A stretch of DNA of 64,000 bases from contig JAAQVN010000001.1 in the NCBI GenBank assembly GCA_011754535.1, positions 558,001 through 622,000 on the forward strand. The letters run 5' to 3'. Below the pieces are notes generated by a model. That model ran no database searches. It had not been told where the DNA came from and saw only the letters and a list, made by a program, of their open reading frames with translations. This stretch comes from Enterobacter asburiae. GTDB lineage: Bacteria > Pseudomonadota > Gammaproteobacteria > Enterobacterales > Enterobacteriaceae. Shown here piece after piece: positions 7,893 through 21,409 of the stretch (positions within the stretch are counted from its first letter, which is position 1; the number at the start of each line of letters is the position of its first letter). Made by a program: the position numbers and the translations under genes.

Positions 7893-9245
7893 ATGGCATT
7901 TGCGATGAAAGTAACCTCACAAGTTGAAGCGCAGCGTAAGATTCTGGAAGAAGCCGTCTCCACCGCGCTGACGCTCGCTTCAGGTAAATCAGATGGCGCC
8001 GAAGTGGCGGTCAGCAAAACCACCGGCATTAGCGTGAGCACCCGCTATGGCGAAGTGGAGAATGTAGAATTTAACAGCGATGGCGCGCTTGGGATCACGG
8101 TGTATCACCAGAATCGCAAAGGCAGCGCGTCATCCACCGATCTCAGCCCGGATGCCATTGCCCGTACGGTGCAGGCGGCGCTGGATATTGCCCGCTATAC
8201 CTCTCCGGATCCTTACGCAGGCGTGGCGGATAAAGAGCTGCTGGCGTTTGACGCGCCGGATCTCGATCTTTTCCACCCGGCGGAAGTGACGCCGGATGAA
8301 GCCATTGAACTGGCCGCGCGCGCCGAGCAGGCGTCATTGCAGGCTGACAAGCGCATCACCAATACCGAAGGCGGCAGCTTCAACAGCCACTACGGCATCA
8401 AAGTCTTCGGCAACAGCCACGGCATGCTGCAGGGCTACTGCTCAACCCGTCACTCGCTCTCCAGCTGCGTCATCGCCGAAGAGAACGGCGACATGGAGCG
8501 CGACTACGCCTATACCATTGGCCGCGCGCTGGGGGATTTGCAGTCTCCTGAGTGGGTGGGTAAAGAGTGTGCCGAACGCACGCTGTCTCGCTTGTCGCCG
8601 CGTAAACTCTCCACCATGAAGGCCCCGGTGATCTTTGCCAATGAAGTGGCGACCGGCCTGTTTGGCCATCTGGTGGGCGCTATCGCGGGCGGCTCGGTGT
8701 ACCGTAAATCGACCTTCCTGCTCGACTCGCTGGGCAAGCAGATCCTGCCGGAATGGCTGACGATTGAAGAGCACCCGCACCTGCTGAAAGGGCTGGCCTC
8801 CACGCCGTTCGACAGCGAAGGCGTACGCACGGAACGCCGCGATATCGTTAAAGACGGCATTCTGACCCAGTGGCTGCTGACCAACTACTCCGCGCGCAAG
8901 CTGGGGCTAAAAAGCACCGGACACGCGGGCGGCATCCACAACTGGCGCATTGCCGGTCAGGGCCTTAACTTCGAGCAAATGCTAAAAGAGATGGGCACCG
9001 GTCTGGTGGTCACCGAGCTGATGGGGCAGGGCGTGAGCGGCATCACCGGCGACTACTCGCGCGGTGCGGCAGGCTTCTGGGTCGAAAACGGCGAAATTCA
9101 GTATCCGGTGAGCGAAATTACCATCGCCGGCAACCTGAAGGACATGTGGCGCAATATCGTTACGGTCGGTAACGATATTGAAACACGTAGCAATATACAG
9201 TGTGGTTCTGTATTACTGCCGGAAATGAAAATCGCCGGCCAGTAA
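7893..9245 (+). CDS. pmbA: Metalloprotease subunit PmbA/TldE
   Basis: Subunit of the TldD/TldE protease complex, which matures the peptide antibiotic microcin B17 and degrades unfolded peptides such as CcdA. The 450 residues starting [16 protein letters not shown] match E. coli PmbA along the whole length. TldE is the partner that lacks the HExxxH zinc site of TldD, and none is seen here. The frame is open for 23 codons upstream, but that part overlaps the likely promoter and is not conserved. cybC follows 40 bp downstream. Confidence 0.97.
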
Positions 9246-9285
9246 TACCCGAAAAGCGTTTTAATAATAAAAAAGGAAGTGAGCA

Positions 9286-9672
9286 ATGCGTAAACACCTG
9301 TTAGCGATCGTCGCGGCTTCAACGCTGGTTCTTGGCTCTTCTGCGTTTGCTGCCGATCTCGAAGACAACATGGACATCCTCAGTCAAAACCTGAAGATAG
9401 TGCAGAAAACGGACAATGCGGCCGAAATGAAAGGCGCACTGACCAAAATGCGTGAAGCGGCGCTGGACGCGCAAAAAGCGACCCCGCCAAAGCTGGAAAG
9501 CAAAGCGGCAGACAGCGCAGAGATGAAAGACTATCGCCACGGCTTTGACGTGCTGGTCGGTCAGATCGACGGTGCGCTGAAGCTGGCTAACGAAGGCAAA
9601 GTGAAGGAAGCCCAGGCGGCGGCTGACCAGTTTGTGGCGACGCGTAACACGTATCACAAGAAATATCGTTAA
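9286..9672 (+). CDS. cybC: Soluble cytochrome b562
   Basis: Periplasmic four-helix-bundle haem protein, 128 residues. A signal peptide of 22 residues ([20 protein letters not shown], cleavage after AFA) precedes the mature [10 protein letters not shown]. Both axial haem ligands are present: Met7 of the mature protein and the histidine in NTYHKKYR close to the C-terminus. Intact, unlike the disrupted copy in some E. coli strains. RBS AAGGAAG at 9272-9278. A strong terminator follows. Confidence 0.97.
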
Positions 9673-9699
9673 TCGATCGCGCATCTGACAAACAACCAG

Positions 9700-9726
9700 C
9701 GGGGGCCAGTGGCTCCCGTTTTTTTT
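9700..9726 (+). terminator. Rho-independent terminator of cybC
   Basis: CGGGGGCC, loop AGT, GGCTCCCG, then eight T residues. It separates the conserved pmbA-cybC unit from the inserted cluster downstream. Confidence 0.9.
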
Positions 9727-9820
9727 ACGCGGTAATAAGTAAACCCTATCGCCATCACATTTTTGCGTCACCACGCCTGAACGTTTTCGTTTCCCCGGCG
9801 CGCGTTTTGCCGCTGGAATA

Positions 9821-9836
9821 CGTGATATTCATCACG
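9821..9836. promoter_or_regulatory. CRP-like site 1 upstream of the EF_0829-type operon
   Basis: CGTGATATTCATCACG is a perfect palindrome with the CRP core GTGA-N6-TCAC. It lies about 170-185 bp upstream of the first gene of the operon. Prediction by inspection only. Confidence 0.55.
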
Positions 9837-9871
9837 CAAATACCGTTATTAATCCAGATTCACCGCATTTA

Positions 9872-9887
9872 TGTGGCACAGATCACT
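9872..9887. promoter_or_regulatory. CRP-like site 2 upstream of the EF_0829-type operon
   Basis: TGTGG-CACAGA-TCACT matches the CRP consensus TGTGA-N6-TCACA at eight of ten positions. Its centre is 51 bp from that of site 1, close to five helical turns, so the two would lie on one face of the DNA. Confidence 0.5.
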
Positions 9888-9900
9888 GCTGCGGCTCGCC

Positions 9901-9920
9901 TTTCCACTTCGAAGTGGAAA
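9901..9920. promoter_or_regulatory. 20-bp perfect palindrome, candidate operator
   Basis: TTTCCACTTCGAAGTGGAAA is a perfect inverted repeat with no loop, 87 bp upstream of the first operon gene and just downstream of the second CRP-like site. No T-run follows, so it is not a terminator. It is the best candidate binding site for the PRD/EIIB/EIIA regulator encoded at 16743-18653. The assignment is an inference. Confidence 0.6.
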
Positions 9921-10006
9921 ACAACTCGCTACAAACAATTCCCCCCCAACGTTAGTTTTATTCCAGAGCCATTAACGGGGTAAGACCAGTGATTAACGGA
10001 GCGGTA

Positions 10007-10327
10007 ATGAACGACGTTGGGGAACAGGCGGAGCAAACAGAACAGCTCGCGACCACCATGCTGCAGCAGGTTTATGCCCTGCTGGCCCGAAACAACATCA
10101 TCCCCAATGCGGTACAGGAGCAGATGCTCACCTCCCACGTGCGCGCAATGGCGCACCGGTCCGTGACCGGCGAGCCGCTGCCGGAGGTAGAAGCAGAGCT
10201 GTTTGACGAAATTTCACCAGATTCAATGCAACTTGCCCGTGAAGTGGTAGCGCAGTTTGGCAATCTTCCTGATGAAGAGGCCTGGCTGCTCTCCGTTCAC
10301 TTTGAAGTCGCGAAAGACAACCTTTAA
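10007..10327 (+). CDS. Small stand-alone PRD-domain protein (EF_0829/AHA_3910 family)
   Basis: A protein of 106 residues that consists of a single PTS regulation domain (PRD). From the ATG at 10007, histidines at about residues 44, 50 and 98 sit where PRDs carry their phosphorylation sites (TSHVRAMAHRSVTGEPLPE and WLLSVHFEVAK). There is no DNA- or RNA-binding domain, so it could be a phosphorylation-dependent partner of the larger regulator of this cluster. An in-frame GTG at 9989 with GGGG upstream is an alternative start giving 112 residues. First gene of a tightly spaced operon that runs to 15472; the next start codon is 10 bp downstream. Confidence 0.85.
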   Translation: MNDVGEQAEQTEQLATTMLQQVYALLARNNIIPNAVQEQMLTSHVRAMAHRSVTGEPLPEVEAELFDEISPDSMQLAREVVAQFGNLPDEEAWLLSVHFEVAKDNL

Positions 10328-10337
10328 GGAGCAACAC

Positions 10338-10700
10338 ATGGAACAGATTACAGTCGTGATTGGCGATCGCCTGGGCAAAGGTCAGAAAGTGGCTGCCGGT
10401 GTGGAAAAAGCAGGCGGACGCGCGGTGGTTGTGCCGGGCATGGCGGCTGACATGAAGCTCGGCGACGTGATGAAAGCGGAAAATGCCACTTTCGGCATCT
10501 CCTTCTGCGGCAGCGGCGGTGCGGGCGCTATCACCGCGCAAACCAAATATGGCTACAAAGCCAAATACGGCATGCGTTCCGTGGATGAGGGCGTGACCGC
10601 CATCAACGAAGGCTGCAACGTGCTGGGCTTCGGCTTTATGGATAAAGAAGAGCTGGGCGAGCGTCTGGTACAGGCGTGGCAGAAGAAATACGGCGCATAA
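10338..10700 (+). CDS. Glycine-rich SFCGS family protein
   Basis: Soluble protein of 120 residues, family of unknown function named after its SFCGS motif, seen here as GISFCGSGGAGAI near residue 53. Two resemblances can be read by eye. The order of the motif, the following basic segment and then EGCNVLGFGF recalls the CGTG...NDANVLALG arrangement of RpiB/LacAB sugar-phosphate isomerases. A conserved cysteine in a glycine-rich loop early in an alpha/beta fold also recalls PTS EIIB domains. Neither is proven. The start MEQITVVIGDR has AAGGAG at 10326-10331. Always found with DUF4310-4312 genes, as recalled from family descriptions; the next gene starts 2 bp after the stop. Confidence 0.88.
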   Translation: MEQITVVIGDRLGKGQKVAAGVEKAGGRAVVVPGMAADMKLGDVMKAENATFGISFCGSGGAGAITAQTKYGYKAKYGMRSVDEGVTAINEGCNVLGFGFMDKEELGERLVQAWQKKYGA

Positions 10701-10702
10701 GC

Positions 10703-11002
10703 ATGAAAGAACAGTTCACAACCACGGTGAGAGTGAAGGGCAAAGGCGACGCCAAAGCGCGCGCCTTTGCTGACGCGCTCAACCACGTTCAGGCTGCGGT
10801 GATGAAAGCCTCACCGCATATCTTACTGCGTATTGAGCCACAGGATGTGCAGGTTGTTCAGGCGCAAGAAGCGGTGCGTAAAGAAGCGTTTCTGTTCTTC
10901 TTTTTGCGCCGGGAGAGACGCACCTACAGCGTGGAGCTGGATGTGACCGTCAACGTGACCGCCATCAATCTCGACCGGGTGGATTTCGTCACGCAACGCT
11001 GA
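10703..11002 (+). CDS. DUF4312 family protein
   Basis: Small soluble protein of 99 residues, function unknown. It has a hydrophilic N-terminal part (EQFTTTVRVKGKGDAKARAF) followed by a strand-rich C-terminal half with an aromatic-basic patch FLFFFLRRERRTYSVELDV. No signal peptide or membrane helix is convincing. Third gene of the operon, starting two bases after the SFCGS gene. Constant company with two membrane proteins (DUF4311, DUF4310) suggests a cytoplasmic component of a transporter; that is an inference. Confidence 0.87.
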   Translation: MKEQFTTTVRVKGKGDAKARAFADALNHVQAAVMKASPHILLRIEPQDVQVVQAQEAVRKEAFLFFFLRRERRTYSVELDVTVNVTAINLDRVDFVTQR

Positions 11003-11025
11003 TTATTCATAAAAAGGGCAGACTG

Positions 11026-11802
11026 ATGTTCTTAATTATATTAATAAAATCGCTCATCATCGGCGGCCTGGTAGGCGTCGGTGTTGGCGCCGGGGCTGCA
11101 CGCATGTTTCATGCGCCTACCACTCAGGGTATGGGCGCGTTTCGTACGTTGGGGGAACTGAACTCCTGCGAAGGGGATCCGGCTTCTCACTTCTCCTTTG
11201 GGTTAGGTTTCTTCTTTAACGCCTGGGCCTCTTCCGTGGCTGCAGGCGCCTTCACACAGGACGTTGACCACCGCATCATCCCGAACTGGGGTGCTGCTGC
11301 ACTGATGATCAAAAACCGTAACGTCGGCGAAACGCTGCACGATCCCCGCAAAATGGCGATTGCCTGCGGTGTGATTGGCATGCTCGTCGTCACCTTCCTT
11401 AACCTGACCGCTTCCTCCGTTCCGGCCGCGCTTCAGGTCACCGCCGTGAAGGTACTGGTGCCTGCCGCGAACCTGCTGGTGAACACCGTCATGCCGGTGA
11501 TCTTCTGGCTGGCGGCTATCGACGCGGGTAAAAAATCGGGCTTCTGGGCCACCATCTTCGGCGGCGCGGCGCAGCTGATTATGGGCAACGCCGTACCGGG
11601 CCTGGTGCTGGGGATCCTGATCGGTAAAGGCGTGGAAGAGAGCGGCTGGAACCACGTCACCAAAGTGATGATGGCGGCTATCGTCCTGCTCTTCGTGCTG
11701 AGCGGCTTCTTCCGCGGCTTCGACATGAAGATGATCGAATCCTTCCATCTGACCGTGCCGAACTGGCTCGATATGATCCACAACTCGCTCAGCGGTAAAT
11801 AA
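11026..11802 (+). CDS. DUF4311 family integral membrane protein
   Basis: Membrane protein of 258 residues with six or so predicted helices: residues 3-25, 56-76, 107-128, 137-166, 176-201 and 213-230. Glycine-rich helices such as GGLVGVGVGAGAARMF and a conserved polar loop with NSCEGDPASHFSFGLGFFFN are notable. Function unknown. Together with the DUF4310 protein encoded 13 bp downstream it probably forms the membrane part of a transporter for the substrate degraded by the downstream enzymes. RBS AAAAAGGGCAGACTG before the ATG. Confidence 0.87.
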   Translation: MFLIILIKSLIIGGLVGVGVGAGAARMFHAPTTQGMGAFRTLGELNSCEGDPASHFSFGLGFFFNAWASSVAAGAFTQDVDHRIIPNWGAAALMIKNRNVGETLHDPRKMAIACGVIGMLVVTFLNLTASSVPAALQVTAVKVLVPAANLLVNTVMPVIFWLAAIDAGKKSGFWATIFGGAAQLIMGNAVPGLVLGILIGKGVEESGWNHVTKVMMAAIVLLFVLSGFFRGFDMKMIESFHLTVPNWLDMIHNSLSGK

Positions 11803-11815
11803 CAGGAGCCTCTAC

Positions 11816-12457
11816 ATGGAACAGAATAAAGGTTTTTGGTATGCCGACTGGTCGTTCCCGATCTTCGTTGGCCTGCTCTCCTCCGGCGTCTTCGCCGGGA
11901 CGCACATGTACTACCTCTACGGCATCGGCGCGTTTAACGAAGTGGCCTTCGTGGCGATGCTGAAAGCGGGGATTGATACCGGCGTCTACGGCGCGGTGGC
12001 GGCGTTCGGCGCAAGTTTCCTGTTCGCCCGCATTATCGAAGGGTCGCTGGTCGGTATTCTTGATATCGGCGGTGCGATCCAGACCGGCGTGGGCCTCGGC
12101 GTTCCGGCGCTGCTGCTGGGCGCGGGGATCATGTTCCCGGTGACCAACTTCATCGCCTCGCTGATTACCGGCCTGGTGATTGGTCTGGCGATCGGCTACG
12201 TCATCATCCTGGCGCGTAAGTTCACCATCAACCAGAGCAACTCTACCTACGGTGCAGACGTGATGATGGGCGCGGGCAACGCCTCCGGCCGCTTCCTCGG
12301 GCCATTGATTATCCTCAGCGCCATGACCGCCTCCATTCCTATCGGCGTCGGTTCACTGGTGGGCGCGCTGCTGTTTTACATCTGGCAGAAGCCGATTACC
12401 GGTGGCGCTATCCTCGGCGCAATGATTTTGGGCTGGCTGTTCCCGGTCGCCCTTTAA
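11816..12457 (+). CDS. DUF4310 family integral membrane protein
   Basis: Membrane protein of 213 residues with about six hydrophobic segments, among them PIFVGLLSSGVFAGTHMYYL, a long stretch at 75-135 (GGAIQTGVGLGVPALLLGAG, ITGLVIGLAIGYVIILA) and ILGAMILGWLFPVAL at the C-terminus. No ABC, MFS or classical PTS EIIC motif is recognisable. Predicted partner of the DUF4311 protein. RBS ACAGGAGCC. It closes the transporter half of the operon; a GC-rich hairpin separates it from the enzyme half. Confidence 0.87.
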   Translation: MEQNKGFWYADWSFPIFVGLLSSGVFAGTHMYYLYGIGAFNEVAFVAMLKAGIDTGVYGAVAAFGASFLFARIIEGSLVGILDIGGAIQTGVGLGVPALLLGAGIMFPVTNFIASLITGLVIGLAIGYVIILARKFTINQSNSTYGADVMMGAGNASGRFLGPLIILSAMTASIPIGVGSLVGALLFYIWQKPITGGAILGAMILGWLFPVAL

Positions 12458-12462
12458 TACCT

Positions 12463-12482
12463 GCGGGCGCTCCGGCGCCCGC
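12463..12482 (+). other. Intercistronic hairpin between transporter and enzyme genes
   Basis: GCGGGCGC, loop TCCG, GCGCCCGC, an 8-bp perfect GC stem with no T-run. It sits in the 42-bp gap between the DUF4310 gene and the amidohydrolase gene. It could stabilise the upstream mRNA segment or reduce downstream expression. Confidence 0.6.
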
Positions 12483-12499
12483 CTTATCAGGAGATCCTC

Positions 12500-13633
12500 A
12501 TGTTTGATTTACTCCTGCGCCGTGCGCGCCTCGCCGACGATACCCTGACCGATATCGCCATTCAGGACGGAAAGATCGCCGCGACGGGCGACATTGACGC
12601 TCCCGCCCATAAAACGGTTGAGCTGAACGGCGACGTGTTCGTCAGCGCAGGCTGGATTGACTCCCACGTTCACTGCTACCCGAACTCCCCGATTTACCAC
12701 GACGAGCCGGACAGCGTGGGCATTGCCACCGGCGTTACCACCGTGGTGGACGCGGGCAGTACCGGGGCCGACGACGTGGACGATTTCTACGACATCACCC
12801 GCAAAGCTTCCACCGAAGTCTTTGCCCTGCTGAACATCTCCCGCGTGGGGCTGATTGCCCAGAACGAGCTGGCCAACATGGCGAATATTGACGCCGAGGC
12901 GGTGAAGCAGGCGGTGAAGCGCCATCCGGATTTTATCGTCGGCCTGAAGGCGCGCATGAGTAGTAGCGTGGTCGGTGAAAACGGCATTACGCCGCTGGAG
13001 CGCGCCAAAGCCATTCAGAAAGAGAACGGCGACCTGCCGCTGATGGTGCACATTGGCAACAACCCGCCGAACCTCGACGAAATTGCCGAGCTGCTGAGCT
13101 CGGGCGACATCATCACCCACTGCTACAACGGCAAGCCAAACCGCATTCTGACGTCCTCCGGCGAGCTGCGCGCCTCCATCACCTCCGCCCGGAAGCGCGG
13201 TGTGCGTCTGGACGTCGGCCACGGCACGGCGAGCTTCAGCTTTGAGGTGGCGAAACGCGCCATCGCGATGGGCATTCTGCCGCACACCATCAGCTCGGAT
13301 ATCTACTGCCGCAACCGCATCAACGGCCCGGTGGGCTCGCTGGCGAGCGTGATGTCGAAATTCCTCGCCATCGGCATGTCGCTGCCGCAGGTGATTGACT
13401 GCGTGACCGCCAACGCCGCCGACGGCCTGCGCCTGACGCGCAAGGGTTGCATCCAGCCGGGTCTCGACGCCGACCTGACGCTGTTCACGATTAAACGCCA
13501 GCCAACGGTGCTGACAGACGCTGAAAACGACAGCCTGCAGGCTGAACACATTCTGGTGCCGCTTGCCGCGATCCGCGCGGGCAAGGGCTACATGACCGAA
13601 CAAGGGAGCACGGAACATGCCTTCGATTTATGA
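12500..13633 (+). CDS. Amidohydrolase-superfamily deacetylase (EF_0837/AHA_3915 family)
   Basis: Metal-dependent hydrolase of 377 residues, dihydroorotase-like. The binuclear metal site is readable: HVH at 56-58, a likely carboxylated lysine at 150 (VGLKARMS), His184 (MVHIG), His207 (ITHCYN) and Asp267 (SSDIYC). Annotated families of this type are called amidohydrolase/deacetylase. In this operon it would remove an N-acyl group, or open a ring, before the ammonia-lyase acts; the substrate is not known. RBS AGGAG at 12489-12493. The 3' end overlaps the next gene by 17 bp. Confidence 0.88.
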   Translation: MFDLLLRRARLADDTLTDIAIQDGKIAATGDIDAPAHKTVELNGDVFVSAGWIDSHVHCYPNSPIYHDEPDSVGIATGVTTVVDAGSTGADDVDDFYDITRKASTEVFALLNISRVGLIAQNELANMANIDAEAVKQAVKRHPDFIVGLKARMSSSVVGENGITPLERAKAIQKENGDLPLMVHIGNNPPNLDEIAELLSSGDIITHCYNGKPNRILTSSGELRASITSARKRGVRLDVGHGTASFSFEVAKRAIAMGILPHTISSDIYCRNRINGPVGSLASVMSKFLAIGMSLPQVIDCVTANAADGLRLTRKGCIQPGLDADLTLFTIKRQPTVLTDAENDSLQAEHILVPLAAIRAGKGYMTEQGSTEHAFDL

Positions 13634-14735
13634 GAAGTATAATTTAAAGCAGGTTATCAACACCTCTGGCCGCATGACGGCGCTGGGCGTCTCCACGCCG
13701 CGCCCGGAAGTGGTGCAGGCGGCGATGGACGGCATGAATCACTATTTCGAGATGAAGGATCTGGTTAACAAAACCGGGGAGTACATCGCGAAGCTGCTGG
13801 ACGTGGAGGGCGCGACGGTGGTCTCCTGCGCGTCGGCGGGCATTGCCCAGTCCGTGGCGGCGGTGCTGGTGAAAGACAGCGACTGGCTGCTGGAAAACCT
13901 GCACGTGACCCCGATTGAGAACAACGAAATCGTCCTGCCGAAAGGCCACAACGTGAACTTTGGCGCGCCGGTGGGCACCATGGTGGCGCTGGGCGGCGGC
14001 AAGCTGGTGGAGGCGGGCTACGCCAACGAATGCTCTGCCGATCAGCTGGCGGCGGCGATCACCCCGCGCACCGCGGCGATCCTCTACATTAAATCGCACC
14101 ACTGCGTTCAGAAAAGCATGCTCAGCGTCGAGCAGGCGGCGGTCGTGGCGCGCAAGCACGATCTCCCGCTGATCGTCGATGCGGCGGCAGAAGAAGATCT
14201 GCACGCCTACTACCGCTCCGGCGCGGATCTGGTGATCTACAGCGGCGCGAAGGCGATTGAAGGGCCAACCAGCGGGCTGGTGATCGGCAAAACCCAGTAC
14301 GTTGAGTGGGTGAAGCGCCAGACTGCGGGCATTGGCCGTGCGATGAAGGTCGGGAAAGAGGGCATTCTTGGTCTGACCTGCGCCATCGAACACTACCTGA
14401 CGGCGACCAAAGAGAGCGGGGCCGAGATGGTGGCGAAGATGACGCCGTTTATCGAGGCGCTCAACACCCTGAACGGCGTGACCGCGCGCGTGGTCTGGGA
14501 CAGCGCCGGTCGCGATATCGCGCGCACCGAGATTAAGTTCGACGAAGCCGCAACGGGCGTCGGCACGGGCGATCTGGTGGCGAAACTCAAACAGGGCGAA
14601 TACGCCATTTACTTCCGTGGCTACAAGGCCAACGAAGGGATTATCGAGGCGGACGTGCGCAGCGTGAGCGCTGACCAGCTGAATATCGTCTACCGCCGCA
14701 TTAGCGAAGTATTAGGACAGGAGAAAAACGCATGA
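13617..14735 (+). CDS. DgaE-like PLP-dependent ammonia-lyase
   Basis: Fold-type I PLP enzyme of 372 residues, SelA-like. The PLP-binding lysine is probably K212 in YSGAKAIEGPTSG, and the ring-nitrogen aspartate D188 in LIVDAAAEEDLH. Salmonella DgaE converts D-glucosaminate 6-phosphate to 2-keto-3-deoxygluconate 6-phosphate plus ammonia; family membership suggests the same or a related amino-sugar-acid phosphate here. It overlaps the amidohydrolase gene by 17 bp and the aldolase gene by 4 bp, so the three enzymes are translationally coupled. The mannose-type PTS found with dgaEF in Salmonella is absent; the DUF4310-4312 set takes its place. Confidence 0.88.
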   Translation: MPSIYEKYNLKQVINTSGRMTALGVSTPRPEVVQAAMDGMNHYFEMKDLVNKTGEYIAKLLDVEGATVVSCASAGIAQSVAAVLVKDSDWLLENLHVTPIENNEIVLPKGHNVNFGAPVGTMVALGGGKLVEAGYANECSADQLAAAITPRTAAILYIKSHHCVQKSMLSVEQAAVVARKHDLPLIVDAAAEEDLHAYYRSGADLVIYSGAKAIEGPTSGLVIGKTQYVEWVKRQTAGIGRAMKVGKEGILGLTCAIEHYLTATKESGAEMVAKMTPFIEALNTLNGVTARVVWDSAGRDIARTEIKFDEAATGVGTGDLVAKLKQGEYAIYFRGYKANEGIIEADVRSVSADQLNIVYRRISEVLGQEKNA

Positions 14736-15472
14736 AACTGACCCCCAACTTTTACCGTGACCGCGTCTGTCTGAACGTGCTGGCCGGCTCAAAGGCTAAC
14801 GCCAGCGCCATTTACGAGGCGGCGGAAGGCCACGTGCTGGTGGGCGTGCTCTCCAAAAATTACCCGGACGTGGCGAGCGCCGTTGTCGATATGCGTGAAT
14901 ATGCCGCGCTGATTGATAACGCGCTTTCCGTCGGCCTCGGCGCGGGGGATCCGAACCAGTCTGCGATGGTGAGCGAAATCTCCCGTCAGGTGCAGCCGCA
15001 GCACGTCAACCAGGTCTTTACCGGCGTGGCCACCAGCCGCGCGCTGCTGGGGCAGAATGAGTCTGTGGTCAACGGTCTGGTCTCTCCGACCGGCACCATC
15101 GGCATGGTAAAAATCTCCACCGGTCCGCTGAGCAGCGCAGCACCGGACGGCATCGTGCCGGTTGAAACGGCGATTGCCCTGCTGAAAGATTTCGGCGGCA
15201 GCTCCATCAAATACTTCCCGATGGGCGGCCTGAAGTGCCGTGACGAATACAAAGCGGTGGCGGAAGCCTGCGCCCGTCACGACTTCTGGCTGGAGCCAAC
15301 CGGAGGTATCGATCTGGAAAACTATGAGGAGATCCTGCAGATCGCCCTCGACGCGGGCGTGAGCAAAATCATCCCGCATATCTACAGCTCGATTATCGAC
15401 AAGGCCAGCGGCGACACGCGTCCGGAAGATGTGCGTACGCTGCTTGTGATGACGAAGAAGCTGGTGACGTAG
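14732..15472 (+). CDS. DgaF-like 2-keto-3-deoxygluconate-6-phosphate aldolase
   Basis: TIM-barrel aldolase of 246 residues (EF_0840/DgaF type). The Schiff-base lysine is probably K160 in SSIKYFPMGGLKCRDEY, and the phosphate-binding loop is EPTGGIDLENY near residue 190. It would cleave KDGP to pyruvate and glyceraldehyde 3-phosphate, the last step of D-glucosaminate breakdown. The ATG overlaps the end of the ammonia-lyase gene (ATGA type). A 76-bp repeat hairpin pair follows directly and may end or dampen the operon transcript. Confidence 0.88.
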   Translation: MKLTPNFYRDRVCLNVLAGSKANASAIYEAAEGHVLVGVLSKNYPDVASAVVDMREYAALIDNALSVGLGAGDPNQSAMVSEISRQVQPQHVNQVFTGVATSRALLGQNESVVNGLVSPTGTIGMVKISTGPLSSAAPDGIVPVETAIALLKDFGGSSIKYFPMGGLKCRDEYKAVAEACARHDFWLEPTGGIDLENYEEILQIALDAGVSKIIPHIYSSIIDKASGDTRPEDVRTLLVMTKKLVT

Positions 15473-15478
15473 TATCTG

Positions 15479-15554
15479 CCCTCACCCTAACCCTCTCCCA
15501 AAGGGAGAGGGAACTTTTACCCCCTCTCCCTTTGGGAGAGGGCCGGGGTGAGGG
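15479..15554. repeat. CCCTC/GAGGG intergenic repeat, copy 2 (inverted pair)
   Basis: Two units in inverted orientation: CCCTCACCCTAACCCTCTCC and its hairpin partner, then CCCCCTCTCCCTTTGGGAGA with GGGCCGGGGTGAGGG. Each unit has its own short hairpin and the two can pair with each other, in the manner of a BIME. Between the aldolase and lactonase genes. Confidence 0.85.
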
Positions 15555-15586
15555 AAAACAAACCGCACAAATATAAAGGAGCCACC

Positions 15587-16723
15587 ATGCACACCCGTAC
15601 CCTGCTTGTTGCTTCACTCTCAATGTTCTCCACTGCCGCTGTCGCCCAGACGCAATACGCCTGGGTGGGCACCTACAACCCCAACGGGGAAGGGCTGTAC
15701 CGCTTTACCGTTGACCCACAAACCGGCGCGCTGGCGAATAAAACGCTGGTGAGCAAGCTGCCGAACGCCGCGCAGCTGACCGTCTCGCACGACGGCAAAA
15801 CGCTCTATCTGGCAAGCGAAGTGGAGCAGGGCTTGGTGCAGGCGCTGCGGGTGGGGGATAACGGCGAGCTAAGCGAACTGAATCAGGTGGCTTCCGGCGG
15901 TGCGGGGCCGGTGTACCTGTCGCTGACGCCGAGCGGCCAGCATCTGCTGGTGGCGAACTATGTCAGCGGATCGATTGCCGTGTTGCCCGTCAACGCGGAC
16001 GGCAGCCTGGGTGACGCTACGGACAAACATCAGGATCAAGGGGAACCGGGCGCGGCGAAGCCGGAAGCGGCTGTCGAAGGTAGCTTTGCCATCAGCGATC
16101 ACAATGGTCCCCATGCGCACATGATCGCTGCCGATCCGAGCGGGAAATATGTTTTTTCTACCGATCTGGGGCTGGATCGTATCTATCAGTACCGCTTTGA
16201 CGATCGAACCGGAAAGCTGACGCCGAACGATCCGCCGTTTATCAGCGCCTCCTCAAAAGGCGCCGGCCCGCGCCACTTTGTCTTTACGCCAAAGGGGGAC
16301 GCCCTGTGGCTGATTAACGAAGAGGCGTCTACGCTCACCCATTATGCGCTGGACAGCAGCGGCAGGCTGAAAGAGGGCAAAACGGTCTCTGCCCTGCCGG
16401 ACGGCTATAAAGGCACCAGCTTTGCAGCCGGGCTCGCATTAAGCGCCGACGGTAAGCAGCTGTATGTGGCTAACCGTTTGCATAACAGCATCGGGCACTT
16501 TACCGTAACAGCGGAGGGCACGCTGACCCATCAGGACGACGTGTGGACCCGCGGCGACTACCCGCGCACCCTGACGCTCGATAAACAGGGACGCTGGCTG
16601 TACGTCATGAACCAGCGCAGCGACAACATTACCCGTTTCCGCGTGGCGCAGGACGGCAAGCTGAGCTTCGAGCCTGACTATACCCCGGTCGGCAGCCCAT
16701 CCCAGATGGTCATTTCACCTTAA
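15587..16723 (+). CDS. Secreted beta-propeller lactonase (6-phosphogluconolactonase-like)
   Basis: Protein of 378 residues of the YbhE/Pgl-type seven-bladed propeller family. A signal peptide of about 20 residues (MHTRTLLVASLSMFSTAAVA) ends before QTQYAWVGTYNP, so the protein is periplasmic, unlike cytoplasmic Pgl. Repeated blade motifs such as LTVSHDGKTLYLASE, LSADGKQLYVANR and DKQGRWLYVMNQ are visible. In this setting it may open aldonolactones outside the inner membrane before uptake. The ATG at 15587 has AAAGGAG at 15575-15581; an upstream ATG 13 codons earlier falls inside the repeat. It is 19 bp from the regulator gene and probably cotranscribed with it. Confidence 0.85.
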   Translation: MHTRTLLVASLSMFSTAAVAQTQYAWVGTYNPNGEGLYRFTVDPQTGALANKTLVSKLPNAAQLTVSHDGKTLYLASEVEQGLVQALRVGDNGELSELNQVASGGAGPVYLSLTPSGQHLLVANYVSGSIAVLPVNADGSLGDATDKHQDQGEPGAAKPEAAVEGSFAISDHNGPHAHMIAADPSGKYVFSTDLGLDRIYQYRFDDRTGKLTPNDPPFISASSKGAGPRHFVFTPKGDALWLINEEASTLTHYALDSSGRLKEGKTVSALPDGYKGTSFAAGLALSADGKQLYVANRLHNSIGHFTVTAEGTLTHQDDVWTRGDYPRTLTLDKQGRWLYVMNQRSDNITRFRVAQDGKLSFEPDYTPVGSPSQMVISP

Positions 16724-16742
16724 GCTGTAAGAGGACAAACCC

Positions 16743-18653
16743 GTGCGATTTCCGAACCAACGTTTAGCGCAACTTTTCGATCTGTTGCAAAACGAGACGC
16801 TGCCACAGGACGAGCTGGCGCAGCGGCTGTCGGTCTCCACGCGAACCGTCCGCGCCGATATCACCGCCCTGAACGCGCTGCTGGCAAGCCACGGCGCGCA
16901 GTTTATTCTGAGCCGGGGCAACGGCTACCAGCTAAAAATTGATGATGCCGAGCGCTATCAGCAGCTTCAGGCATCGCACCCGCGCGCGCTGCGAATTCCC
17001 CGAACGGGAGCGGAGCGCGTGCACTATCTGGTGGTGCGTTTTCTGACGTCGGCGTTTTCGCTTAAGCTTGAAGATCTGGCTGACGAGTGGTTTGTCAGCC
17101 GCGCCACGCTGCAAAGCGACATGGTGGAAGTGCGCGAGTGGTTCCAGCGCTATAACCTGACGCTGGAAACCCGCCCGCGCCACGGCATGAAGCTGTTTGG
17201 CAGCGAGATGTCGGTGCGCGCCTGCCTCACCGATCTCCTGTGGGAGCTGGCGCAGCAGGACAGCCTCAACCCGCTGGTGACGGAGGTCGCGCTCAACGCC
17301 GGGGTACCGGAGCAGATGGTAGCTGTGCTGCACGACGCGCTTACCCGGCACCACATCCGCCTGACTGACGAAGGCGAGCTGTTCCTGCGTCTGTACTGTG
17401 CGGTGTCGGTGCGTCGTATCAGCGAAGGCTTTCCGCTGCCGGAATTTCATGCGGAAGACGTGGAAGAGAACGTGCGCGAGGCGGCGAAGGATATCGCGGT
17501 GGTCATTCAGGAGCTGGCGGGCAAAGCGCTGTCGCCGTCCGAAGAGAGCTGGCTGTGCGTGCACATTGCGGCGCGGCAGATTCAGGAGATCGCCCCAAGC
17601 GCGATTAACGCCGACGACGACGAGGCGCTGGTCAACTACATCCTGCGCTACATCAACACCCACTATAACTACAACCTGCTCAGCGACGCACAGCTGCACG
17701 CGGATCTGCTCACGCACATTAAAACCATGATCACCCGCGTGCGGTATCAAATCATGATCCCCAATCCGCTGCTGGAAAACATCAAGCAGCATTACCCGAT
17801 GGCATGGGATATGACGCTGGCGGCGGTGTCGAGCTGGGGCAAATACACGCCGTATGCGATCAGCGAAAACGAGATTGGCTTTCTGGTGCTGCATATCGGC
17901 GTCGGGCTGGAGCGCCACTACAACATCGGCTACCAGCGCCAGCCGCGCGTGCTGCTGGTGTGCGATGCCGGGAATGCCATGGTGCGCATGATCGAGGCGG
18001 TGCTTCAGCGCAAGTATCCGCAGATCGAGGTGACGCGCACGCTCACCCTGCGCGAGTACGAGCTGGCGGATGCTATCGGCGAGGACTTTGTTATCTCTAC
18101 CGCCCGCGTCAGCGAAAAATCCAAACCGGTGGTGACGATCGCCCCGTTCCCGACCGACTATCAGTTAGAGCAGATCGGCAAGCTGGTGCTGGTGGACCGC
18201 ACCCGACCGTGGATGCTGGAGAAATACTTCGACGCGGCTCATTTCCGCATTCTCGACAAGCCCGTTGACCAGCAAACGCTGTTCCGCGAGCTGTGTGACC
18301 AACTTGAACACGAAGGTTTTGTTGGCGCGGAGTTTCTGGATTCGGTCGTCGAGCGTGAGGCTATCGTCAGCACCATGCTCGGTGACGGCATCGCGCTGCC
18401 TCACTCCCTCGGCCTGCTGGCGCAGAAAACGGTGGTCTACACGGTTCTGGCTCCGCAGGGCATCCCGTGGGGGGATGAAACCGCGCACGTCATCTTCCTG
18501 CTCGCCATCAGCAAAAGCGAGTACGAAGAGGCGATGGCGATTTACGATATCTTCGTCACCTTCCTGCGTGAACGGGCGATGGCGCGCCTGTGCCAGTGCG
18601 GAGATTTTGCCGGGTTTAAGGCGGTGGCAATGGAGAGTTTGAGCCGGTTTTGA
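16743..18653 (+). CDS. PTS-controlled transcription regulator (HTH, two PRDs, EIIB, EIIA)
   Basis: Regulator of 636 residues of the MtlR/LicR type. N-terminal HTH at about 1-65 (RLAQLFDLLQNETLPQDELA, SVSTRTVRADITALN), PRD1 about 180-280, PRD2 about 285-395 (FLVLHIGVG), an EIIB-like domain about 398-490 with the cysteine loop LLVCDAGNAMVRM, and a fructose/mannitol-type EIIA domain about 500-636 with the histidine motif GIALPHS. Activity would be set by PTS phosphorylation of the PRD, Cys and His sites. No classical EII permease is encoded nearby, which makes the four unknown proteins of the operon the likely partners. Candidate operator: the palindrome at 9901-9920. Confidence 0.9.
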   Translation: MRFPNQRLAQLFDLLQNETLPQDELAQRLSVSTRTVRADITALNALLASHGAQFILSRGNGYQLKIDDAERYQQLQASHPRALRIPRTGAERVHYLVVRFLTSAFSLKLEDLADEWFVSRATLQSDMVEVREWFQRYNLTLETRPRHGMKLFGSEMSVRACLTDLLWELAQQDSLNPLVTEVALNAGVPEQMVAVLHDALTRHHIRLTDEGELFLRLYCAVSVRRISEGFPLPEFHAEDVEENVREAAKDIAVVIQELAGKALSPSEESWLCVHIAARQIQEIAPSAINADDDEALVNYILRYINTHYNYNLLSDAQLHADLLTHIKTMITRVRYQIMIPNPLLENIKQHYPMAWDMTLAAVSSWGKYTPYAISENEIGFLVLHIGVGLERHYNIGYQRQPRVLLVCDAGNAMVRMIEAVLQRKYPQIEVTRTLTLREYELADAIGEDFVISTARVSEKSKPVVTIAPFPTDYQLEQIGKLVLVDRTRPWMLEKYFDAAHFRILDKPVDQQTLFRELCDQLEHEGFVGAEFLDSVVEREAIVSTMLGDGIALPHSLGLLAQKTVVYTVLAPQGIPWGDETAHVIFLLAISKSEYEEAMAIYDIFVTFLRERAMARLCQCGDFAGFKAVAMESLSRF

Positions 18654-18659
18654 GGTAAG

Positions 18660-18683
18660 GGCGGACGGATAACATCCGCCTTT
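18660..18683. terminator. Short hairpin between convergent regulator and nrdG genes
   Basis: GGCGGA at 18660-18665 pairs with TCCGCC at 18675-18680, followed by three T residues. It lies between two convergent stop codons and may serve both; the T-run is weak. Confidence 0.5.
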
Positions 18684-18685
18684 GA

Positions 18686-19150
18686 TCAACGCAAATGATG
18701 CACAACCTGGTTACTGCTGCCGCGCCAAATCAGCGCCGGGTCTTTTAAATCCTGTACGAACTTGCCGTCGACCAGCACGTTAATCAGTTCCACCACTTCC
18801 ATTTGCTGCGCGTTCAGCTCATCCAGCTTATAGCCTGTCCAGACCCAGATATCTTTTCCCGCACACTCTGCCCGAATGCGCTTCACCAGCTTCAGGATAT
18901 CCGGCACGTTTTGCGGGTGCAGGGGGTCGCCACCGGAAAGTGAGATCCCCTGACGGTGAATGCGCGTGTCGTTCAGGTCGTTGACGATCTTGTCTTCCAT
19001 CTCAGCGGTAAACGGCATGCCGGAGTTCAGACGCCAGGTGCTTTTGTTGTAGCAGCCGGGGCATTCGTGGACGCAGCCTGAAACAAACAGGGTGCAGCGG
19101 GTGCCGGGGCCGTTGACGATGTCGACGGGGTAGTATTGATGGTATCGCAT
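18686..19150 (-). CDS. nrdG: Anaerobic ribonucleotide reductase-activating protein
   Basis: Radical-SAM activase of 154 residues that installs the glycyl radical in NrdD under anaerobic conditions. The 4Fe-4S cluster motif CVHECPGC gives the CxxxCxxC cysteines at about 26, 30 and 33. SAM-binding glycine-rich segment SLSGGDPLHPQNV. The start MRYHQYYPVDIVNG fits E. coli NrdG; an in-frame extension of 18 codons comes from the repeat upstream and is rejected. It follows nrdD in the same operon, 120 bp apart, with a repeat element in the gap. Confidence 0.97.
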   Translation of the reverse strand: MRYHQYYPVDIVNGPGTRCTLFVSGCVHECPGCYNKSTWRLNSGMPFTAEMEDKIVNDLNDTRIHRQGISLSGGDPLHPQNVPDILKLVKRIRAECAGKDIWVWTGYKLDELNAQQMEVVELINVLVDGKFVQDLKDPALIWRGSSNQVVHHLR

Positions 19151-19181
19151 AGAAAATGTCCAGAGAATGTGCGCGCTGATG

Positions 19182-19253
19182 CCCTCACCCCGGCCCTCTC
19201 CCACAGGGAGAGGGGGAAAAGTTCCCTCTCCCTTGAGGGGTAGGGTGAGGGGG
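19182..19253. repeat. CCCTC/GAGGG intergenic repeat, copy 3 (inverted pair)
   Basis: CCCTCACCCCGGCCCTCTCC with hairpin partner, a short AAAAGTT linker, then a second unit in inverted orientation ending TAGGGTGAGGG. It lies inside the nrdDG operon, between the two genes, where it would form a strong intercistronic structure in the mRNA. Confidence 0.85.
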
Positions 19254-19270
19254 AGAACCCTGCGCAGAAC

Positions 19271-21409
19271 TTACCCGATCTGCCCATTCCCCAAATGCTT
19301 CACGCGGCGCTTCACCTCTTCCTGCTTGCCAGCGTTAAACGGACGCGCATCCGGGCTGCCGAGATAGCCGCACACGCGACGGGTCACAGAGACGCGGGCC
19401 GCATCGTGGTTGCCGCATTTCGGGCAGGTGAAGCCTTTACTCGTACACTCGAACTCACCGGTAAAGCCGCACTCGTAGCACTCGTCGATTGGCGTGTTGG
19501 TCCCGTAATACGGCACGTGCTGATAGCTGTAATCCCATACGTCTTCCAGCGCCTTCAGGTTGTGCTGAATGTTCGGGTACTCGCCGTAGCAGATGAAGCC
19601 GCCGCTGGCGATCGGCGGATAGGCCGCTTCGAAGTCGATCTTATCGTACGGGTTCACCTTTTTCTCCACGTCGAGGTGGAAGCTGTTGGTGTAGTACCCT
19701 TTGTCGGTCACGCCTTCCACAATCCCGAACTCGGCGGTATCCAGACGGCAGAAGCGGTCGCACAGGTTCTCGCTCGGCGTGCTGTAGAGGCTAAATCCGT
19801 AGCCGGTTTCCTCTTTCCACTGGTCAACCGCGTCGCGCAGGCGTTGAACAATCGCAATGCCTTTTTCGCGCAGGGCCTCGCTGTCGTACATATGCGTATC
19901 GCCAGCCAGGGCGTTGATGGTCTCGTGGATGCCGATATAGCCCAGCGAAATCGACGCGCGGCCGTTTTTGAAGATCTCGGACACGTCATCGTCCGCCTTC
20001 AGGCGCACGCCGCAGGCCCCTTCCATATAGAGGATTGGCGCGACGCGGGCTTTCACTCCTTCAAGGCGAGCAATACGGGTCATCAGCGCCTTACGCGCCA
20101 GCTGCAGACGTTCATCCAGCAGCTTCCAGAATTCAGCTTCATTGCCTTTGGCCTCCAGCGCGATGCGCGGCAGGTTCAGGCTGATCACCCCCAGGTTGTT
20201 ACGCCCGTCGTGGATCTGCTCGCCGTTTTCATCTTCGTACACGCCGAGGAAGCTGCGGCAGCCCATTGGCGTTTTAAACGAGCCGGTCACTTTAACGACC
20301 TGATCGTAGTTCAGGATGTCCGGGTACATGCGCTTGCTCGCGCACTCCAGCGCCAGCTGTTTGATGTCGTAGTTCGGGTCGCCAAACTTGTGGTTCAGGC
20401 CGTCGCGAATCGCGAACACCAGTTTCGGGAATACCGCCGTTTTGCGGTTCTTGCCGAGGCCGGAAATACGGTTGCGCAGGATGGACTGTTGAATCAGGCG
20501 TGATTCCCAGCTGGTGCCCAGGCCAAAGCCGAAGGTTACAAACGGCGTCTGGCCGTTGGCGGTGTGCAGCGTGTTCACCTCATATTCCAGTGACTGGAAC
20601 GCGTCGTAGCACTCTTTTTCGGTGCGGGAGTGCGCATAGCCGTCCGCGTCCGGGATCTGCCACTCTTCGGCGGTTTTACGGTGCTTGTTGAAGCTCGCCG
20701 TTACGAACGGGGCCAGCACTTCATCAATGCGGTTAATGGTGGTCCCGCCGTAAATATGGCTCGCCACCTGGGCGATGATCTGTGCCGTAACCGCGGTGGC
20801 GGTGGAGATGGATTTTGGCGGTTCAATCTCGGCGTTACCCATTTTAAAACCGTGGGTCAGCATGCCTTTCAGGTCAATCAGCATGCAATTGAACATCGGG
20901 AAGAACGGCGAATAGTCGAGATCGTGATAGTGGATCTCGCCGCGCTCGTGCGCAGACACCACGTCGCGCGGCAGCAGGTGCTGACGGGCATAGTGTTTGG
21001 CGACGATACCGGCCAGCAGGTCGCGCTGGGTCGGGATCACTTTACTGTCTTTGTTGGCGTTTTCGTTGAGCAGGGCAGAGTTGGTCTGCTCCACCAGGCC
21101 ACGGATCTCCTGGTTCAGGCGACCGCGCTTCTCACGCTGCACGTCACGATCGTGGCGGTACTCAATATAGGCGCGCGCCAGCTGCTTGTAAGGCCCCGCC
21201 ATCAGCTGGTTTTCAACCGCGGTCTGGATCTCGTTGATATCGACCTGGCTGCGTTCAGTCATCTGGCTGCTAACGACTTCTGCGACGGTGGCGCAGTAAT
21301 CTGCGTCATCGACTCCCGCTGCTTTAGCTGCACGCAGAATGGCTTCCTGGATGCGCTCTGATTTAAACGGCACTTTACAGCCATCACGTTTCATCACATG
21401 CGGTGTCAT
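19271..21409 (-). CDS. nrdD: Anaerobic ribonucleoside-triphosphate reductase
   Basis: Class III ribonucleotide reductase of 712 residues, reduces NTPs to dNTPs under anaerobic conditions. An N-terminal ATP-cone (HVMKRDGCKVPFKSERIQEA) is followed by the catalytic barrel, a zinc site CYECGFTGEFEC...CPKCG, and the glycyl-radical loop RRVCGYLGS with the radical glycine at residue 681, as in E. coli. The start MTPHVMKRDG is the known one; eleven upstream in-frame codons are ignored. The leader contains FNR, NrdR and DnaA sites. It forms an operon with nrdG. Confidence 0.98.
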   Translation of the reverse strand: MTPHVMKRDGCKVPFKSERIQEAILRAAKAAGVDDADYCATVAEVVSSQMTERSQVDINEIQTAVENQLMAGPYKQLARAYIEYRHDRDVQREKRGRLNQEIRGLVEQTNSALLNENANKDSKVIPTQRDLLAGIVAKHYARQHLLPRDVVSAHERGEIHYHDLDYSPFFPMFNCMLIDLKGMLTHGFKMGNAEIEPPKSISTATAVTAQIIAQVASHIYGGTTINRIDEVLAPFVTASFNKHRKTAEEWQIPDADGYAHSRTEKECYDAFQSLEYEVNTLHTANGQTPFVTFGFGLGTSWESRLIQQSILRNRISGLGKNRKTAVFPKLVFAIRDGLNHKFGDPNYDIKQLALECASKRMYPDILNYDQVVKVTGSFKTPMGCRSFLGVYEDENGEQIHDGRNNLGVISLNLPRIALEAKGNEAEFWKLLDERLQLARKALMTRIARLEGVKARVAPILYMEGACGVRLKADDDVSEIFKNGRASISLGYIGIHETINALAGDTHMYDSEALREKGIAIVQRLRDAVDQWKEETGYGFSLYSTPSENLCDRFCRLDTAEFGIVEGVTDKGYYTNSFHLDVEKKVNPYDKIDFEAAYPPIASGGFICYGEYPNIQHNLKALEDVWDYSYQHVPYYGTNTPIDECYECGFTGEFECTSKGFTCPKCGNHDAARVSVTRRVCGYLGSPDARPFNAGKQEEVKRRVKHLGNGQIG

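Follow-up and report, generated by a model that had tools for sequence, protein, structure and literature searches.

What does an operon do in which four protein families without known function stand beside a deacylase, an ammonia-lyase and an aldolase? We asked this question of a locus of Enterobacter asburiae (assembly GCA_011754535.1, contig JAAQVN010000001.1, positions 558,001 to 622,000 of the forward strand). These 64,000 nucleotides, the whole stretch of DNA analysed, are called the window, and coordinates refer to it. The operon consists of ten plus-strand genes (9989 to 18653) between cybC and nrdG (Table 1). Its first eight genes are separated by intergenic gaps of −17 to +42 bases. 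Each of the eight, from the lone PRD protein to the DgaF-type aldolase, scores above the cut-off of its own NCBIfam model, and together they fall in the EF_0829–EF_0839/AHA_3910–3917 families and a DgaE-like subfamily. A preliminary description of the sequence had presented eight tightly spaced or overlapping genes, including SFCGS, DUF4312, DUF4311 and DUF4310 (hereafter the DUF block), as an operon at 10007 to 15472. All eight are present, but the span was slightly short: the PRD gene begins with a GTG codon at 9989 (an ATG is also present at 10007), and a lactonase and a regulator extend the operon to 18653.

Our best explanation, for which we judge the balance even, is that the operon imports and degrades an N-acylated 2-amino-2-deoxy-aldonic acid, with phosphorylation coupled to the phosphotransferase system (PTS). 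DUF4311 and DUF4310 would form the membrane part of the importer, and SFCGS and DUF4312 its soluble parts. The substrate would be phosphorylated at position 6 at entry or directly after, probably with PTS phosphoryl groups passing from EI to HPr, on to the lone PRD protein and/or the EIIA domain of the regulator, and then to Cys57 of SFCGS. The amidohydrolase would take off the acyl group, the DgaE-like enzyme would eliminate ammonia to give 2-keto-3-deoxy-6-phosphogluconate (KDGP), and the aldolase would cleave KDGP to pyruvate and glyceraldehyde 3-phosphate. Where present, the lactonase might open a lactone form in the periplasm as the first step, and the regulator might sense PTS flux and act at a single upstream palindrome. 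What is likely to be ordinary pathway chemistry is joined here to an uptake block that is unusual, conserved across many loci and, it appears, undescribed; the preliminary interpretation, taken as a whole, was partly supported.

Conservation of this gene set was examined in 93 loci longer than 10 kb, comprising four plasmid-collection records, ten divergent genomes and 79 near relatives (a genome scan gave at least 499, of which the best 80 were taken and one was short). Chance does not account for the set: all nine core genes occur together in 91 of the loci, including Enterococcus faecalis and a Bartonella plasmid, and a second Bartonella plasmid likewise carries all nine. The lactonase is optional (47/93). 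Frequent occurrence of the four unknown families without enzymes or regulator, raised at the outset as a possible objection, was not seen: one internal deletion (L042) and one contig ending before the regulator (L110) were the incomplete cases among these 93, mainly closely related, loci. In six divergent loci, ten flanking proteins were all ordinary and differed from locus to locus, which suggests that the nine genes move together. Between the window and E. faecalis, identity is 74% for SFCGS, 73% for DUF4310, 67% for DUF4311 and 66% for the aldolase, and 54%, 47% and 31% for the DgaE-like protein, the amidohydrolase and the regulator; the membrane pair is therefore at least as constrained as the enzymes.

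Known transporters in the slot of the DUF block

Next, we asked what occupies the place of the DUF block in other operons. Plasmid records were searched with the operon enzymes for loci carrying both DgaE and DgaF, and the resulting comparison comprises four operons without a DUF block plus that of E. faecalis. In Priestia (L202), a deacylase, DgaE, DgaF and a PfkB kinase are accompanied by GntR and a GntP gluconate:H+ symporter. Clostridioides difficile (L206) combines lac/cel PTS IIA, IIB and IIC (of the three, IIC alone exceeds its subfamily cut-off) with MupG, deacylase, DgaE, DgaF and a kinase, and Niallia (L207) has lac/cel IIC, MupG and the same four. Lacticaseibacillus paracasei (L205) carries mannose PTS IIA–D with DgaE and DgaF; tblastn found neither deacylase nor kinase in that stretch, so that a deacylase is present in three of the four operons. 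No DUF-block homologue was detected in the fetched stretches of these four (tblastn, E≤1e-3). Divergent KDGP aldolases of Listeria and Alicyclobacillus (30–32%) and lone amidohydrolases of Rhizobium and Salipiger were set aside, as no close DgaE–DgaF pair was found there.

The E. faecalis cluster (L039; EF0829–EF0839, TIGR03577–03583) contains the same nine families as the window, with the PRD-to-DgaF genes in equal order. In contrast to the window, its regulator lies upstream and has no detectable EIIA, and the cluster adds a lac/cel PTS IIC, a 99-aa protein, MupG and a PfkB kinase. Its aldolase gene aligns as two pieces at about 19500–20250 without an annotated coding sequence, and may be frameshifted. 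A lac/cel IIC relative (33–36%) was also noticed near the operon in Citrobacter (L074).

These comparisons bear out the proposal that uncharacterised proteins stand in a transporter's place, as known transporters fill that slot elsewhere. Since no other core gene encodes a known transporter either, it appears very improbable that the membrane pair works as a sensory or regulatory complex rather than as a transporter, even though it co-occurs with a lone PRD protein and a PRD regulator, and E. faecalis has a known PTS IIC alongside its DUF block.

The distribution of kinases adds to this picture. By tblastn with three kinase queries, a kinase was found in only one of 94 DUF-block loci, that of E. 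faecalis. The PfkB kinases of these operons resemble 2-keto-3-deoxygluconate (KDG) kinases, none scoring above the equivalog cut-off. Judged from gene content, a kinase appears to accompany import routes that leave the sugar acid unphosphorylated, either a symporter or release from a phosphorylated disaccharide by MupG (the latter a presumed role), and DUF-block operons would behave as PTS operons in this respect. Furthermore, on two Bartonella plasmids (L040 and L201) an HPr-EI fusion protein is encoded directly after the regulator. Both plasmids come from bat faeces, and the operon with HPr-EI adjoins the type VI secretion genes tssA and tssM. Because of the known transporters in its slot, the kinase pattern and the Bartonella HPr-EI protein, transport by the DUF block is likely, indeed probable by a good measure, and the PTS link proposed in the preliminary description is plausible and supported.

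Enzymes and the probable substrate

The proposed order of deacylation, ammonia release and aldol cleavage, which the preliminary description had also suggested, is supported by the enzyme families and their conserved active sites. In the amidohydrolase, the candidate metal-site residues H56, H58, K150, H184, H207 and D267 are invariant (94/94). In the PDB it is related to 8wzy (very closely) and to 2ics, whose names on deposition, dihydroorotase and adenine deaminase, both seem questionable in the operon context. An N-acyl D-amino acid would be in keeping with the reported hydrolysis of N-acetyl-D-serine and acetyl-(R)-mandelate by COG3964 relatives.

The DgaE-like protein aligns to the Salmonella enzyme DGL (7lc0/7lce). 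It passes the broader TIGR01437 model and remains below DgaE proper, with 382 bits against the NF047797 equivalog cut-off of 600; no second DgaE-type gene above the family cut-off was found in its own genome. The pyridoxal phosphate lysine K212, the loop histidine H162 and residues R303, R334 and R348 are present in 94/94 sequences and the other histidine of the loop pair, H161, in 93/94, and the position of the DGL carboxylate residue Arg226 is occupied by Lys in 80 and by Arg in 14. R303, R334 and R348 correspond to R301, R332 and R346 of DGL, which adjoin the phosphate of a docked substrate in a model described in the available part of PMC9529869. The three arginines are also present in the DgaE enzymes of Priestia, C. 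difficile and L. paracasei. Their invariance in all 94 sequences indicates that the true substrate of the DgaE-like enzyme is most likely phosphorylated. The aldolase scores above the cut-off of its own equivalog model.

Two known pathways were compared with this arrangement. The Salmonella dgaABCDEF operon is said to take up D-glucosaminate via a mannose-family PTS (Miller et al. 2013). Both systems have a DgaE-type ammonia-lyase, a DgaF-type aldolase, a phosphorylated amino-sugar acid and a PTS context. The window operon differs by adding the EF_0837 deacylase and the PRD/EIIA regulator, by having a DgaE-like protein under the DgaE cut-off, and by replacing the EIIA-B-C-D block with PRD, SFCGS, DUF4312, DUF4311 and DUF4310. 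The ong cluster of Pseudoalteromonas shares the overall deacetylation and deamination chemistry and the end product KDG-6-P (excerpts of PMC9537276 and PMC12017989). N-acetylglucosaminate is there deacetylated, deaminated and then phosphorylated to KDG-6-P (PMC9537276, in part). By contrast with the window, where DgaE/DgaF-type enzymes go with an uncharacterised transport block, ong employs a D-aminoacylase-type deacetylase with a Cys/His/His metal site, the D-amino-acid-deaminase-like OngC, a sodium symporter and KdgK, according to the same excerpts.

The likeliest substrate would be the monomer of C1-oxidised chitin, N-acetyl-D-glucosaminate (GlcNAc1A), or one of its stereoisomers. An N-acetyl amino-aldonate, whether free or at the end of a disaccharide, is suggested because the lactonase, the deacylase, DgaE/DgaF, the gluconate-type symporter of Priestia and the pair of lac/cel IIC and MupG all fit it. 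The lactone and acid forms of GlcNAc1A are in equilibrium, as stated in an extract of PMC12017989, and the lactonase, with its signal-peptide-like N-terminus, would be periplasmic. For E. faecalis, amino-sugar processing and a possible fitness role have been suggested for EF0839/EF2975 (PMC7701990, in part), the ef_0839/ef_2975 promoter is listed as urine-induced in a section of PMC2912369, and dgaEF duplicates are mentioned in one of PMC7396535.

The unknown proteins and the proposed phosphoryl route

The lone PRD protein and SFCGS both have invariant phosphorylatable residues. His50, Arg57 and His104 of the lone PRD protein are invariant in 147/147 sequences; in Pfam, the protein scores 20.4 bits, slightly short of the 23 bits required for PRD. 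Cys57 of SFCGS, in a Gly-rich loop, is likewise invariant (147/147). A kinship of SFCGS to EIIB proteins found no sequence support: Pfam and hhalign comparisons with EIIB families gave no match, and RpiB was matched instead. RpiB models are its best non-self matches (NCBIfam E=0.0045 and 0.007, Pfam E=0.011, all below cut-offs), and in hhalign RpiB ranks first and second among 77 targets (P 0.00077 in local mode; global mode is weaker, P 0.0075), a score reached by 0/60 nulls. By profile comparison, then, SFCGS is a remote RpiB/LacAB relative. Apart from the operon, the same genome encodes a divergent RpiB/LacAB-like protein with a CGTGQGA loop (L188, C1:2968328-2968660).

This kinship, together with the retained RpiB-type Cys and loop, would also suit an SFCGS that is an isomerase-like pathway enzyme of the RpiB/LacAB type and no phosphocarrier. 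We consider that improbable. SFCGS has DRLG in place of the RpiB motif DHAG, and thus lacks the His, and it stops before the C-terminal GGRH..R segment, which binds phosphate in RpiB; moreover, the pathway offers no obvious step for an aldose-ketose isomerase. That SFCGS serves as a Cys phosphocarrier is itself unlikely, if somewhat less so.

In a crude hydropathy scan, DUF4311 has about six hydrophobic segments and DUF4310 about seven. Here too a kinship to PTS components, EIIC and EIID, found no sequence support. Comparison with ManY, AgaC, ManZ, AgaD and two-member profiles gave DUF4310–ManZ as the best result (P 0.036 over 11 columns), hhalign revealed no relation between DUF4311 and DUF4310, and SFCGS, DUF4311 and DUF4310 had chance matches only among PDB sequences. 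A match of DUF4312 to RecA (P 0.00055 over 22 columns) was taken as chance among 308 comparisons. No paper on the function of SFCGS, DUF4310, DUF4311 or DUF4312, and no experiment on them, was recognised in searches that covered mainly open-licence articles.

A comparable layout was found in the yhf operon of E. coli and on a Cetobacterium plasmid, where, as in the window, a lone PRD protein, a small RpiB-like Cys protein (DUF2620) and a polytopic protein (YhfT) go with pyridoxal phosphate enzymes. In Cetobacterium, PRD, DUF2620 and YhfT are direct neighbours, arranged in this order, and an amidase, a phosphotriesterase and pyridoxal phosphate enzymes come next. Unlike the window operon, yhf has no DgaE/DgaF family enzyme listed, and its regulator YhfZ is without a PRD; the lone PRD protein therefore goes with the transport-like genes. 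The best partners of DUF2620 among 95 targets are RpiB and SFCGS, and its only other Pfam match is a weak one to RpiB (E=0.065). The SFCGS–DUF2620 score (P 0.008) is reached by 0/100 shuffles, narrowly (20.62 against 20.45), and that of RpiB–DUF2620 by 1/100, so that both kinships are only suggestive. YhfT showed no relation to DUF4311 or DUF4310, as equally high scores were reached by 35 and 69 of 100 shuffles and a windowed comparison was negative too. In its layout, the yhf operon (L190, L197) resembles a second such system, which is a lead and no proof of kinship. It is a shade less probable than the phosphocarrier role alone that all these elements make up a so far undescribed class of PTS permease, with DUF4311 and DUF4310 unrelated to EIIC/EIID, SFCGS as an RpiB-derived Cys phosphocarrier, the lone PRD protein standing in for EIIA, and yhf (PRD, DUF2620, YhfT) as a second branch.

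Coupling of PTS phosphorylation to transport by the DUF block is a tentative proposal, to which we give somewhat less than an even chance. Less probable again, and on the unlikely side, is an account in which the unphosphorylated acid enters through the DUF block as through any ordinary importer, a kinase encoded elsewhere phosphorylates the substrate or KDG, and the PTS acts solely on the regulator and the lone PRD protein. Several observations weigh against PTS-coupled import, and the first four speak for this account: 1) the genome has 14 PfkB matches elsewhere, and a kinase could therefore act in trans; 2) in the ong pathway, uptake is by a symporter and phosphorylation is the final step, and OngB, OngC and OngD did not process phosphorylated GlcNAc1A, as far as the excerpts of PMC9537276 report; 3) DUF4310 and DUF4311 are without kinship to EII proteins, their profiles matching no PTS permease among the 77 hhalign targets and nothing convincing among PDB sequences; 4) the PRD/EIIA regulator alone accounts for the PTS proteins, and the Bartonella HPr-EI protein could serve it alone; 5) SFCGS resembles an isomerase family, not EIIB; 6) four kinase-bearing operons are the whole basis of the kinase argument; and 7) E. 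faecalis has DUF block and kinase together, with its regulator lacking a detectable EIIA. Standing against a kinase in trans, however, are the kinases of the Priestia, C. difficile, Niallia and E. faecalis operons, whose import routes would leave the sugar acid unphosphorylated, as opposed to the near absence of kinases from DUF-block loci, and the complete retention of the phosphate-binding arginines in the DgaE-like enzyme.

Regulation, distribution and meaning

The regulator downstream had been expected to contain PRD, EIIB and EIIA domains. PRD and EIIA were recovered by Pfam, but no Pfam model matched the EIIB-like region around Cys407, which is assigned by motif and by the preliminary description. 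Among 92 regulators examined, Cys407 is present in 85 and replaced by Ser in seven (L143 and six other loci), and EIIA His554 is kept in 91/91 sequences that retain the domain, including all seven with Ser. Retention of the EIIA His where the EIIB-like Cys is lost suggests another partner for EIIA; a purely regulatory role is possible.

The pattern TTCCAC-N6-GTGGAA occurs as a single copy in the 4.96 Mb genome, upstream of the PRD gene, with a reversed-pattern control count of 0. Of 94 PRD upstream regions (window included; most are near relatives), 77 contain the relaxed form TTCCAC-N0-10-GTGGAA, which is absent from E. faecalis and Bartonella. The palindrome is a probable operator of the operon's own regulator. 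A CRP-like site scores above the 99th percentile of the shuffled window region in 70 of 94 upstream regions, which is a weak test. Judging by locus order, Salmonella STM4441-2 and STM4446 would be counterparts of genes of this operon. STM4441-2 is listed as crp-regulated, and STM4441-2 and STM4446 were raised in Salmonella grown with a permissive caecal community, according to the available part of PMC11000858. A terminator-like hairpin 3' of cybC may set the operon apart from its upstream neighbour; the 13 terminator-like sites in 9200–19300 are not above shuffles (mean 11.3, sd 3.2).

Table 1. Features of the operon and its upstream region (window coordinates)
Feature	Position	Strand	Basis
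Terminator-like hairpin with T run, 3' of cybC (cytochrome b562)	9698..9720	+	10 pairs, 7 GC; consensus match only
CRP-like site	9818..9839	+	score 28.3; shuffle 99th percentile 26.9
Perfect palindrome TTCCACTTCGAAGTGGAA	9902..9919	+	pattern TTCCAC-N6-GTGGAA
Lone PRD protein, EF_0829 family	9989..10327	+	TIGR03582, 139 bits
SFCGS protein, EF_0830 family	10338..10700	+	TIGR03577, above cut-off
DUF4312 protein, EF_0831 family, presumably soluble	10703..11002	+	TIGR03578, 142 bits
DUF4311 membrane protein, EF_0832 family	11026..11802	+	TIGR03580, 514 bits
DUF4310 membrane protein, EF_0833 family	11816..12457	+	TIGR03579, 395 bits
EF_0837-type amidohydrolase/deacylase	12500..13633	+	TIGR03583, 578 bits
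DgaE-like pyridoxal phosphate ammonia-lyase	13617..14735	+	TIGR01437, above cut-off
DgaF-type KDGP aldolase	14732..15472	+	TIGR03581, 406 bits; NF047796, 390.5 bits (cut-off 300)
7-bladed lactonase, signal-peptide-like N-terminus	15587..16723	+	PF10282, 322 bits
Regulator, HTH-Mga-PRD-PRD-(EIIB-like)-EIIA	16743..18653	+	Pfam domains; EIIB-like part by motif

DUF4311 is carried by 34 of 35 other genomes of the window's genus. It was found in 15 of 148 genomes of an order sample (one of the 15 under the cut-off), in one of 369 of a class-wide sample (solely the window's own) and in 7 of 299 of a phylum sample. Complete E. coli genomes gave no match to the operon in megablast mode, and no relative was found in the viral contigs searched. 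A weak DUF4311 match (L028) is spurious and lies in the membrane N-terminus of a J-domain-like protein, which we take to be DjlA; another (L029) and the E. coli control match are probably of the same kind. Evidence from Bacillota comes from plasmid-collection records, a collection that includes chromosome-sized records (4.9 Mb) or ones with housekeeping genes such as murF (L039, L042), and the plasmid labels of such records are doubtful. In L042 (Aeromonas caviae NZ_AP026896), a deletion at 10714-11271 takes out the amidohydrolase and DgaE genes and leaves the beginning of DUF4310 fused to the final part of the aldolase.

We know of no description of a PTS with such a carrier fold and donor, and the phosphocarrier reading, if true, would add both to the PTS. 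For two Aeromonas strains with lytic polysaccharide monooxygenases and trace GlcNAc1A, alignments to OngB and OngC were distant or none, and other deacetylases and deaminases were left open, according to the available part of PMC11653859. The operon, whose families are named after AHA_3910 and of which A. caviae L042 has a deleted copy, offers non-homologous deacetylase and deaminase candidates for this genus. Cumulatively, four conserved families without known function are given a proposed joint role and a substrate class, both of which can be tested.

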